From contig NZ_CP104003.1 of assembly GCF_025231485.1 (NCBI RefSeq), forward strand, positions 1,798,001 to 1,862,000: a DNA stretch of 64,000 bases. The letters run 5' to 3'. Under the pieces are notes generated by a model, which was given only the letters and a program-made list of their open reading frames with translations, had not been told where the DNA came from and did not search any database. Of the stretch, positions 44,784 to 51,257 are shown one piece after another. Positions within the stretch are counted from its first letter, which is position 1; each line of letters begins with the position of its first letter. Position numbers and translations under genes: made by a program. Source of the DNA: Salinirubellus salinus. Lineage in GTDB: Archaea; Halobacteriota; Halobacteria; Halobacteriales; Haloarculaceae.

Positions 44784-47333
44784 TCAGGCCGGTGTCTCGC
44801 CGTCGCCGCCGGACTTCTCGGCCGGCGCCTCGGCCGCGGCGGGCTCCGTCGTCCCGGACTCGGGGGCGGCGGCGCCGCCGCCACCGTCGAACACCCGTGC
44901 CCAGACGACGAGCGTCGAGGGGAGCACGAGCAGCGACGAGACGAAGGCGTAGAACACCGAGAGCGCGGCCAGCAGGCCGAACTGGCCGATAGCCGGGAAC
45001 ACCGAGAGGACGAGCACGCCGATGCCGAACACCGTCGTCAGCATCGACCCCGCGAGCGCACCGCCCGTCCCTCGGACGGTCCGTTCGAGCGCGGTGAACA
45101 GGTCGTACTCGTGGTACTCGTCGGCGAACCGGTGGACGACGTGGACCGAGTAGTCGATCCCCAGGCCGATGGTCAGCCCGAGGATGGTCGCCGTGAACGC
45201 GTTGAACGAGATGCCGGCGAGTCGCATCGACCCGGCGACGAGCGCCACGGTGACGACGATGGGGAACAGGTTCGCCAGCCCCAGCGACGGGCGTCCCTCC
45301 AGCACCCAGTAGATGAACAGGAGGAACACGGCCGTCCCCGCGAGTGCGACGGCGAGGCTCGTCAGCGCCGACTGCAGGATGAGGTCGGAGATGGCCTGGA
45401 ACACGACGGTCCCGCCGGTGGCGGTGGCCGCGAACCGGAAGTTCCCCTCCAGCTCCTGCGCGTCGGCGGTGGTCTCGGCCTGCGTGGCGTCCGCCTCGAC
45501 GGAGTAGATGATCTGCGTCGAGCGGTAGTCCTCGGTCAGGTACTCCCGAGCCTCGCCGGCCGACGAGGAGGCGAACAGGTAGTCGTACACCTGTTCGAGG
45601 TTGTCGTCCGGGATGCCGTTCCCGTTCGCGTCGTTCCGCTGGACGAGGTCGCGGAACTCGGGGTCGCTCGCGGCCCGCTGTTCGATGACCGAGATGATGC
45701 CGGTCGCCTCCGCCTGCCCGTTCGACCGGACGAACGAGTCCGGCGGGTCCTCGCCGGCGCGATGGATGCTCTCCAGCGCGCTATCCTCGCGCAACGGCCC
45801 CTCGACGTACATGATGACCGAGGCCGACTGACTGACCGCGAACTTCTCTTCGAGGAAGTTCAGGTCACGGGTGACCGTGTACTCGCTGGGCTTGAACGGT
45901 TCGGGCAAGGACTGGAGGTACGCCGGGTTCTCCTCCGGCGGCAGGAAGTCCTCGTTCGTGAACGAGGTGTCGATGTCAGTGGCGTAGACGCCCGCACCGG
46001 CCGAGACGGCCAGCATCAGGAGGACGAACACGACCGGGGCGCGGCGGGCGATACCGACGCCGCCGGTGAGCGCCCGACCGAACGCCGACCCCTCCTGGCC
46101 CAGCGGCGTCTGGGAGAACGTCGGGATGGGGTACTTCTGTCGTGCCCGGTCCAGCGACACCTTCGCCGCCGGCAGGAACACCCCGAAGATGAGGAAGGTG
46201 AACACGATACCGACGCTCGCGACGATACCGAAGTCCGAGATGGGCGGCAGCGCCGAGGTGAGGTTCGCCGAGAACCCGATGACCGTCGTCCCCGTGACGA
46301 TGAAGAACGCGACGAGCAACTGGTCGGTCGCGGTGGTCATCGAGTCGTCGATGTCGTAGCCGAGCACCCGCTCCTCGCGGTAGCGATTCACCGCGTGGAT
46401 ACCGAAGTCGATACCGACCGCCAGCAACAGTGGCGGCACCGCGATGAGGATCTGGTTGAACGGGATGCCCGCCAGCCCCATGAACCCGAACGTCCAGACG
46501 ATGGTCATCAACAGACAGAACAGCCCCAGCAACAGGTCCATCAGGTCGCGGTAGGCGACCACGAGGAACAGGAAGATGAAGAACACCGCCGCGGGGATGA
46601 CGATGATGAGCGAGTCGCCGATGACGTTGCCGAACTCCGCGGAGATGATCCCGTTCCCGAACACACGGATGTCGCCGTCGACGGTGCTCGTGATGTACTG
46701 CGCGCGCAACTGGATGGGCGTGAGCGGCGAGCTACCGCCCTGTCCGGCCGACTCGGAGACGCCACCGGGGAGTTCGTGCGTGACGACGCCGATGGTCGCC
46801 GAGGCGCTCGCTGCCTCACGGTTGTAGTCCCTCGAGACCAGCCCACGGATGCCGCCGCGGTCGTCGGCCTGCCGGACCGCCCGGTCGATCTGGCCGGGCG
46901 TGGCCCGCTCGATGGCGGCGATCTGCTGTTCGAGCGTCGTCGCCGACGGGTCGAGCGTCCGAGCGACGATGCTGGCGACGCCGGAGGTGGAGTCGACCCG
47001 CAGCCCGTCGGCGTCCTGCAACCGCTGCTGGACCTCCAGCATCCGCAACATCTCGCGTTGCGAGAGGACGTTCTGGCCCGTCTGGATGAGCTGTGTGCTG
47101 CCGGTGTCGGTGCTGAACGACGGCCCGAACTCGCGCTGGACGTCCTCGAACGCGCGCTGGGCGGGGACGTCCTGGGTGAACCCCTCGGTCCCGGCGTCGG
47201 TCGAGACGTTCGCCAGCCCCCCCGCGAAGATCGCCGTCAGGACGAGGAAGACGACGACGATTCGCTTGGGATGGTTGACGATCTGGTCGTCCGCCGCGTC
47301 GATGAACCGCTGGTAGTCGACAGGCCCGGCCAT
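44784..47333 (-). CDS. RND-superfamily MMPL-type exporter (HAE3-like)
   Basis: The 849-residue protein has 12 transmembrane segments in two halves of 1+5. Each half has a large extracellular loop and a conserved permease core (VPPLLLAVGIDFGIHAVNRYREE and ILGLTIGLGIDYSVHVVHRFADEY). The Asp residues in these helices are the proton-relay positions of RND pumps. MMPL/HAE3 proteins export lipids or hydrophobic compounds. The ATG follows the stop of the repeat protein without a gap, so the two are one transcription unit. Confidence 0.92.
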   Translation of the reverse strand: MAGPVDYQRFIDAADDQIVNHPKRIVVVFLVLTAIFAGGLANVSTDAGTEGFTQDVPAQRAFEDVQREFGPSFSTDTGSTQLIQTGQNVLSQREMLRMLEVQQRLQDADGLRVDSTSGVASIVARTLDPSATTLEQQIAAIERATPGQIDRAVRQADDRGGIRGLVSRDYNREAASASATIGVVTHELPGGVSESAGQGGSSPLTPIQLRAQYITSTVDGDIRVFGNGIISAEFGNVIGDSLIIVIPAAVFFIFLFLVVAYRDLMDLLLGLFCLLMTIVWTFGFMGLAGIPFNQILIAVPPLLLAVGIDFGIHAVNRYREERVLGYDIDDSMTTATDQLLVAFFIVTGTTVIGFSANLTSALPPISDFGIVASVGIVFTFLIFGVFLPAAKVSLDRARQKYPIPTFSQTPLGQEGSAFGRALTGGVGIARRAPVVFVLLMLAVSAGAGVYATDIDTSFTNEDFLPPEENPAYLQSLPEPFKPSEYTVTRDLNFLEEKFAVSQSASVIMYVEGPLREDSALESIHRAGEDPPDSFVRSNGQAEATGIISVIEQRAASDPEFRDLVQRNDANGNGIPDDNLEQVYDYLFASSSAGEAREYLTEDYRSTQIIYSVEADATQAETTADAQELEGNFRFAATATGGTVVFQAISDLILQSALTSLAVALAGTAVFLLFIYWVLEGRPSLGLANLFPIVVTVALVAGSMRLAGISFNAFTATILGLTIGLGIDYSVHVVHRFADEYHEYDLFTALERTVRGTGGALAGSMLTTVFGIGVLVLSVFPAIGQFGLLAALSVFYAFVSSLLVLPSTLVVWARVFDGGGGAAAPESGTTEPAAAEAPAEKSGGDGETPA

Positions 47334-49689: not shown

Positions 49690-49697
49690 GTATAAGC
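49690..49697 (-). promoter_or_regulatory. TATA-like element of the repeat-protein/MMPL operon
   Basis: AGTATAAG on the plus strand (CTTATACT on the minus strand) lies about 65 bases before the ATG at 49628. It is the only AT-rich element in that half of the spacer. Confidence 0.45.
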
Positions 49698-49784: not shown

Positions 49785-49802
49785 ACCGAACGAACGTTCG
49801 GT
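49785..49802. promoter_or_regulatory. TetR operator, copy 1
   Basis: ACCGAAC-GAAC-GTTCGGT is an inverted repeat with perfect 7-base arms. The 16 bases GAACGAACGTTCGGTA (49788-49803) are repeated exactly at 49813-49828. The site sits between the divergent TetR gene and the repeat-protein/MMPL operon. Confidence 0.7.
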
Positions 49803-49812
49803 AATCACGGCT

Positions 49813-49828
49813 GAACGAACGTTCGGTA
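49813..49828. promoter_or_regulatory. TetR operator, copy 2, next to the TetR promoter
   Basis: This second exact copy of GAACGAACGTTCGGTA begins 25 bases after the first. It abuts TTATGTA (about 49832-49838), the likely TATA box of the TetR gene. Binding here would block TetR's own transcription. Its position upstream of the MMPL operon promoter allows control of both directions. Confidence 0.7.
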
Positions 49829-49893
49829 GGGTTATGTACTTTCCGACCTGTCAGTACGACAGGAATCCGACGCGACCGTGTCGGCCCGGCCAC

Positions 49894-50526
49894 ATGAGAG
49901 AGGACCAACCCTTCGACGACGAACCCGCCACGACCGAGGAGCGCATCATGCACGCGACCTACGAGATGCTCGGTCGGCACGGGTACGCGGGCCTCTCGAT
50001 CGGGCGGATCGCCGAGGCGGCCGACCTCAGCAAGTCGTCGGTCTATCACTTCTACGACGACAAGGAGGACCTGCTGGTGGCGTTCCTCGACGGGATGCTC
50101 GAGTGGTTCCGGGGGCAGTTCGCCCAGGATCCCGAGGAGGATCCGGTGACGGCGTTACGCGAACAGGCCCGGAGCGTCGTCACCGGCGTCCCGCCGGGCG
50201 CACCGGCCCCCGTCGACGAGGACGGCGTCCCGTTCGGCCCGTTCGTCGAGCTCCGGGCGCAGGCCATCACGGACCCGGCGTTCCGCGAGCGGTTCACGCG
50301 CATCGACGCGCTGTTCCGACAGGAACTCGCGGAGGTCGTCGCCCGCGGCATCGAGGACGGCGTCTTCCGCGAGGTCGACCCGGACCGGACGGCCGAACTC
50401 CTGTTGACGCTGTTCATGGGGGTCGTCCTCCGGCGCTCGACGGCCGACGGGCTCGACACGGACGGTCTGACGGCCGAGCTGGAGCGACTGTTCGAGACGT
50501 ACCTGTACGCCCCGGACGCTCAGTAG
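49894..50526 (+). CDS. TetR-family transcriptional regulator
   Basis: This 210-residue protein has an N-terminal helix-turn-helix (YEMLGRHGYAGLSIGRIAEAADLSKSSVYHFYDDKEDLLVAFLDGM) that is fully typical of TetR. A helical ligand domain follows. The start is ATG 49894 (MREDQPFDD), not the upstream frame. It is divergent from the repeat-protein/MMPL operon with two identical operators between, so it most likely represses exporter synthesis until a compound binds. Its stop overlaps the converging DICT gene by 7 bases. Confidence 0.9.
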   Translation: MREDQPFDDEPATTEERIMHATYEMLGRHGYAGLSIGRIAEAADLSKSSVYHFYDDKEDLLVAFLDGMLEWFRGQFAQDPEEDPVTALREQARSVVTGVPPGAPAPVDEDGVPFGPFVELRAQAITDPAFRERFTRIDALFRQELAEVVARGIEDGVFREVDPDRTAELLLTLFMGVVLRRSTADGLDTDGLTAELERLFETYLYAPDAQ

Positions 50527-51257
50527 GACTCGACCAGCCCGTAGGAGGTGTTGAGGTAGTCGATGATCCAGTCGACGGTGTCGGGGTCGTACGTCCAGAA
50601 GCCGTAGAACGTGCGCGGTTCGCGCTCCTCGGCGAGCAGCGCACACTTGTTCACGTCGACGCCGCCGCCGTCGTAGACGACGAACCACGAGGTCTCGATC
50701 TCGCTCGAGCGCTCGACGTGGATGGTGAGGTCGGTGTCGTGGCGGGGGACCTCGGCGTCCGGGTACGCGTAGGCGTGGACGTCGAGGCGTTCCTTCTCCG
50801 CCAGCCGCTTGTAGACGTCCATCTGGTCGTCGAGGATAGAGAGCATCTGGAAGCCGGCGTGGAGCTGGCCCTTGCCGAGCCGCCACGCGCGGTCTTCGAT
50901 CTCACGGGAGGCCGCCACCATCTGCCCCGTGTCGTAGGACGTGAACATCGTCTCGTCCAGGTGGTCGAGGATGGGGCGGTACGAGCCCTCCTCGAACTCG
51001 GGGTCGTTGGGGTCGGCCTGCGAGAGGATATCGTCGATGCTCGCGGCCGTGACGAACTGGTCGTCCGCCTCGGGCGTGTCCTTCGAGAGCACCGCGAACC
51101 CACCAGGGCGTCCTGACTCCGTCCGCTCGTGTTCGACTGTGAGGTTTCTGTCGTGGAACCGCTCGCGGACCGCGGCGACGGTCTCCTCGTCGGCGTTGAA
51201 GACGGTGAGCGTCTTCTCGTGGCTCTCGACGCCGGCGATGAGTTCGGTCAGAGACAT
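50520..51257 (-). CDS. DICT sensory domain protein
   Basis: The 245-residue protein matches the haloarchaeal DICT domain family. It starts MSLTELIAGVESHEKTLTVFNADEETVAAV, has a central MFTSYDTGQMVAASREIEDRAWRLGKGQLHAGFQML, and ends in TWFV-like and TFYGFWTYDP strands. DICT domains are proposed to sense signals and often precede GGDEF or histidine kinase outputs. Here the domain occurs alone, which is common in haloarchaea. It converges with the TetR gene. Confidence 0.85.
   Translation of the reverse strand: MSLTELIAGVESHEKTLTVFNADEETVAAVRERFHDRNLTVEHERTESGRPGGFAVLSKDTPEADDQFVTAASIDDILSQADPNDPEFEEGSYRPILDHLDETMFTSYDTGQMVAASREIEDRAWRLGKGQLHAGFQMLSILDDQMDVYKRLAEKERLDVHAYAYPDAEVPRHDTDLTIHVERSSEIETSWFVVYDGGGVDVNKCALLAEEREPRTFYGFWTYDPDTVDWIIDYLNTSYGLVESY

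Follow-up and report, generated by a model that had tools for sequence, protein, structure and literature searches.

Predicted TetR operators between a TetR-family gene and a repeat-protein/MMPL exporter operon in the haloarchaeon Salinirubellus salinus

Between a TetR-family gene and the divergent genes for a repeat protein and an RND exporter, the genome of Salinirubellus salinus carries the same short inverted repeat twice, which raises the question whether these repeats are operators, which protein would bind them and which of the two transcription units they would control. The window, meaning the whole 64,000-nucleotide stretch that was analysed, corresponds to C1:1798001-1862000 of the 4.38-Mb, two-contig genome and contains the following features at this locus:

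44784..47333, minus strand: MMPL-family RND exporter, 849 aa, starting at the base that follows the repeat-protein stop codon
47334..49628, minus strand: repeat protein, 764 aa, with NEW3 (NPCBM_assoc)/CARDB Ig-like repeats
49785..49802, no strand assigned: predicted operator site 1, ACCGAACG-AA-CGTTCGGT, overlapping the 16-mer at 49788-49803
49810..49828, no strand assigned: predicted operator site 2, GCTGAACGAACGTTCGGTA, including the 16-mer at 49813-49828, with weaker outer symmetry
49893..50526, plus strand: TetR-family regulator, probable start ATG 49893

Since the MMPL gene begins right after the stop codon of the repeat-protein gene, both genes probably form one operon. The repeat protein has, as judged by eye, a signal-peptide-like N-terminus and a C-terminal hydrophobic segment. 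The exporter scores 85.8 bits against the MMPL family (PF03176, gathering score 20.5), and its top NCBIfam match, HAE3 (TIGR00921), is nevertheless below the cut-off (246.1 bits against 351.9). Among the relatives of this exporter, the best titled ones are mostly from Halobacteria; the gene pair is also found in archaea outside the order, in G133, and archaeal titles were seen throughout the 80 loci that represent the best 80 of 422.

The regulator belongs to the TetR family by its helix-turn-helix domain (46.1 bits against PF00440, gathering score 24), and its C-terminus matches the BetI-type TetR_C_6 family (45.6 bits, threshold 27). Full-length models for BetI (TIGR03384, 34.6 bits against a cut-off of 201.3) and FadR (NF053878 of NCBIfam, 30.3 bits against 200) did not recognise it as a member, and a phmmer search with the single TetR sequence returned none of the solved TetR chains, including FadRSa, at E values up to 0.001. 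The open frame also holds an earlier ATG at 49834, within an AT-rich box; with numbering from ATG 49893, the ten best TetR matches start within query residues 1-7. At its other end, the gene overlaps tail to tail (50520-50526) with a DICT-domain gene on the minus strand (50520-51257).

Both copies of the 16-mer GAACGAACGTTCGGTA that the earlier note had described are present at 49788-49803 and 49813-49828, 25 bp from start to start, and their inverted repeat is confirmed. A third perfect match does not occur anywhere in the genome, so that the proposed genome search revealed no wider regulon. Six places in all match with up to two mismatches, and with up to three mismatches the window contains five matches, a number that none of 100 shuffles reached (mean 0.78). 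A better unit than the 16-mer is the 18-bp palindrome of site 1, with 8-bp arms around a central AA and all eight arm pairs matching: the sole perfect genome match of ACCGAACGNNCGTTCGGT is site 1, and site 2 read in the same register (49810-49827) has two mismatches to ACCGAACGNNCGTTCGGT. The centre of the relatives' consensus (AACGTT) lies two bases to the right of the site-1 centre; the two readings overlap, and both sites allow two overlapping symmetry centres. A separate inverted repeat, CCTGTC-AGTAC-GACAGG, is located between the sites and the tetR start (49847-49863) and is unlike the operators.

Conservation of the sites beside TetR genes

For the comparison, 116 related genomes were searched with the TetR and MMPL proteins and 99 stretches upstream of MMPL genes were taken, leaving out MMPL matches below about rank 100, one partial match and one match at a contig edge. 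Together with the window, and apart from L134 and L139, which could not be oriented, this gave 98 loci: 26 TetR-linked ones including the window, with a TetR-like gene beyond the repeat protein, 58 operons with a repeat protein and no TetR neighbour, and 14 without a detected repeat protein, which are in neither group. As the stretches cover the upstream side only, a TetR gene downstream of the MMPL gene would be missed.

Simple word counting already recovered GACTGAATATTCAATC with up to three mismatches in 21 of the 26 TetR-linked regions, as compared to three in each of three Markov shuffles. The consensus TGAAYGAAYRTTCRTTCA, which was formed partly on these same regions and on further loci, so that the count is not independent of it, occurs at the same tolerance in 23/26 intergenic regions in which a TetR gene follows the repeat-protein/MMPL operon and in 2/58 operons without a TetR neighbour (shuffles at three mismatches: 0.00% and 0.09%, respectively). 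The three TetR-linked loci without a site are L132, L121 and L126, the latter two being weak TetR matches. In 40 further TetR loci (L160-L199) that were not used to fix the consensus, 17 upstream regions carry the site and 23 have none within about 450 bp at three mismatches; the corresponding controls gave 3/2000 shuffles and 2/277 other segments of the same loci.

A set of named genomes, partly overlapping the 26, shows the site in 25 of 28 TetR-linked operons, a number that includes L218, probably a false TetR call. In this set 10/80 loci lacking a repeat-protein or MMPL match were left uncounted, a simple check detected two exact duplicates of earlier loci, and many of the 28 share a genus with earlier loci or with one another; such congeners are frequent among all loci, and the counts therefore overstate independence. 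Operons without a divergent TetR gene carry the site in 9 of 42 cases. Five of these are Haloferax loci (L235, L236, L240, L267, L276), in which the site is upstream of the repeat protein and a TetR-like gene follows downstream of the MMPL gene on the same strand; the other four (L230, L259, L262, L285) have neither a divergent nor a downstream TetR gene in the stretch examined.

The closest TetR homologue (L140, 54% identical) has no site even at four mismatches, and its MMPL match starts about 2 kb from the TetR gene. The 25-bp tandem arrangement recurs in L056, L058 and L061, and L141 has a 26-bp tandem. Near a TetR gene, L168 (33-3554) and L141 (238-3675) encode MMPL proteins with 1173 and 1145 aa, whose C-terminal extension had no match in Pfam; these two stretches yielded no repeat-protein match.

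The earlier note had made its proposal depend on the motif being conserved upstream of orthologous tetR genes, and this is what the partly overlapping sets show (23/26 and 25/28). A short palindrome in the shared region that is conserved together with the regulator, as expected of a TetR operator, is thus found here. That the repeats are due to chance or form a structural element, such as a hairpin or the end of a mobile element, and regulate nothing appears exceedingly improbable, because conservation beside TetR genes is far above that in shuffles and other segments and the symmetry at the window sites stops at the site edges. What such an explanation can draw on are the matches elsewhere: a looser consensus finds 11 places in the genome, namely two here, two at a paralogous operon, C1:2100300, C1:2042095 and five unlinked places without known TetR link (one of them C1:2155144). 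The match at C1:2100300 (L201:4792-4827) is inside a longer inverted repeat with 17/18 arm pairs, perhaps related to a mobile element, and a similar, less symmetric match is found at C1:2042095 (L200:4596-4613). The reversed-pattern controls for these searches were not CpG-matched and are not used as probabilities.

Recognition helix and operator type

Besides its mere presence, the type of the site largely follows the recognition helix of the linked TetR protein. In all 12 site-bearing loci with a DLSKS[ST] or SVSKST helix, the two variable letters are exclusively C/G (up to four mismatches), and seven further DLSKST loci of the named-genome set bear CGAACGAACGTTCGGT sites. With KSxSL-type helices, 34 of 38 site-bearing loci have neither C nor G at these letters, the four mixed cases being L068, L154, L162 and L183. 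L168 also breaks the rule, other helix types are mixed, and L140 has a DLSKSS helix yet no site. The association is what one would expect if the linked TetR protein read the site directly; we regard it as support and not proof, because of the relatedness among the DLSKS proteins and the contribution of shared ancestry.

Conservation beside tetR and the tracking of the recognition helix together make the two repeats very probably operators of a TetR protein. The genome holds five matches to this TetR, and a second repeat-protein/MMPL operon (C1:2137146-2141930) faces a DUF7575 protein and a TetR gene of its own; its region (C1:2135927-2141930, L208:5428-11431) contains two related sites of the same kind near both divergent starts. 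One of these paralogues rather than the neighbour might therefore bind the window sites. We consider this very unlikely, as the C/G-type sequence agrees with the helix type of the neighbour, the site sequence occurs nowhere else in the genome as a perfect copy and the sites of the paralogous operon, beside their own TetR gene, differ from those in the window.

From these data we lean slightly towards a more general rule: a large group of TetR repressors in Halobacteria, many of them encoded beside RND/MMPL exporters, may use a common operator code with the half-site GAAYGAA, whose Y/R letters would be set by the recognition helix (C/G for DLSKS[ST], T/A for KSxSL), and with either one operator per divergent promoter or a tandem around the operon start. 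In the lineage of the window, the operon side is doubled and the tetR side has no site. No operator code common to haloarchaea turned up in the literature searched, nor did titles and abstracts of the open-licence PMC literature yield a paper on these operators or on TetR control of this operon. If the code is true, genome sequences would directly reveal which genes many haloarchaeal TetR proteins control, and the TetR inducer would open the substrates of repeat-protein/MMPL exporters to testing.

Promoter geometry and the proposed control

Which of the two transcription units the sites would control depends on the promoter elements around them:

49690..49696, minus strand: TATA-like CTTATAC, a rival box nearer the operon, seen by eye
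49830..49844, minus strand: probable BRE/TATA of the exporter operon, GGAAAGTACATAACC
49832..49838 and 49839..49844, minus strand: TATA-like TACATAA and BRE-like GGAAAG

The earlier note had one repeat abutting the TATA box of the TetR gene. An AT-rich box at 49832-49838 does adjoin site 2, but the relatives assign it better to the divergent minus-strand operon, and it thus seems to read better as TATA/BRE of the operon than of tetR. In operon direction, GGAAAGTACATAACC is followed at once by site 2, and in many relatives, too, an AT-rich box immediately precedes the operon-side site, which in several of them occupies the position of site 2. Upstream of the operon-side site, AT content averages 0.66 at -15 to -3 versus 0.46 at -45 to -16 over 23 de-duplicated loci, several of the sites chosen for this analysis being weak or lying on the wrong side (L069); the AT-richest hexamer falls at -14 to -8 in only 12/23 loci. 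If the box is the TATA/BRE of the operon, the start would be near 49810, between the two sites, and both sites would therefore flank it. The repeat-protein ATG follows the rival box CTTATAC after about 65 bp, and a TATA-like TTTATATCCC is similarly placed in L052, again by eye; if these were the real promoters, the sites would be 90-130 bp upstream and direct blocking would fail. A scan for sigma-70-type promoters, the wrong promoter type for an archaeon, gave no match.

We consider it quite probable, judging from the DNA, that the TetR protein represses the exporter operon by occupying its promoter and that a ligand relieves this repression; the kind of control is ordinary TetR repression. 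The computed basis consists of the sites, their conservation with this type of tetR and the association between helix type and operator type. A dimer of the adjacent TetR would bind each palindrome, with site 2 lying downstream of the probable TATA box and ahead of the predicted start (~49810) and site 1 just past this start, and the bound dimers, perhaps cooperatively in view of the 25-bp pair, would stand in the way of RNA polymerase, so that the exporter stays unexpressed. Release of TetR from the DNA would come from a small hydrophobic or amphiphilic ligand, possibly a substrate of the exporter.

Autoregulation, the other half of the control that had been proposed, is less settled than control of the operon, which is the better supported half (23/26; 25/28). 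Some members of the group probably do regulate their own tetR, since a site stands 26-30 bp ahead of the aligned TetR start in 12 of the 26 TetR-linked loci. In the window, no such site is found at up to four mismatches, and the same applies to the two closest TetR homologues (L140, L141). The sites could still mainly serve autoregulation, if TTATGTAC (49832-49839) is the TATA box of tetR and the operators upstream of it block access of TFB/TBP, or one box could serve both directions. For this speak the tetR-side sites in 12/26 loci and the box itself, which would give a fitting leader of about 30 nt and, by eye, has no AT-rich competitor between the sites and ATG 49893; inspection by eye also found no good separate tetR promoter in the window. 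However, the plus strand has no BRE-like A-rich stretch before the box, whereas GGAAAG precedes it on the minus strand, with similar stretches in L057, L059, L060, L084 and L089, and the tetR-start site is absent at this locus. We hold autoregulation as the main role to be a tenable but somewhat less than even prospect. With repression of the operon, the archaeal exporter and its surface repeat protein become a testable system, in which a compound that frees TetR would hint at the exporter cargo.

Comparison with known systems

The gene arrangement resembles the bacterial AcrR and MtrR systems, in which a TetR gene is found beside an RND exporter and the operator is in the promoter region. Likewise, tetR adjoins an RND exporter here and the predicted operator is in the promoter region; the differences are that the exporter is MMPL/HAE3-like, that it is paired with a NEW3/CARDB repeat protein and that the promoter is archaeal. 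For the operator itself, Bacillus FadR, also of the TetR family, presumably binds TGAATGAATANTCATTCA, which we take to be close to the T/A-type haloarchaeal sites; its target genes, as we assume, differ from the exporter operon. The FadR model, at 30.3 bits against its cut-off of 200, does not class the window TetR as a FadR.

Among archaeal regulators studied so far, the nearest that we found is FadRSa of Sulfolobus acidocaldarius, a TetR protein with a 16-bp motif of dyad symmetry and a site just downstream of a start, that of its own gene, for which a dimer of dimers on one operator is also reported (PMC6449355). FadRSa is described as acyl-CoA responsive and as repressing a lipid cluster of 23 genes mostly from sites more than 130 bp away from promoters; for its own gene, TBP/TFB binding is stimulated by FadRSa and action at a later stage is proposed (PMC6449355). 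The likeness is one of motif length, dyad symmetry and site position, and the target differs, being a lipid cluster for FadRSa (PMC6449355) and an exporter operon here. The same source also mentions paired dimers of the QacR type (PMC6449355). The two overlapping centres of each site in the window are reminiscent of QacR in their sequence symmetry, and the haloarchaeal locus has, in addition, two separate palindromes 25 bp apart.
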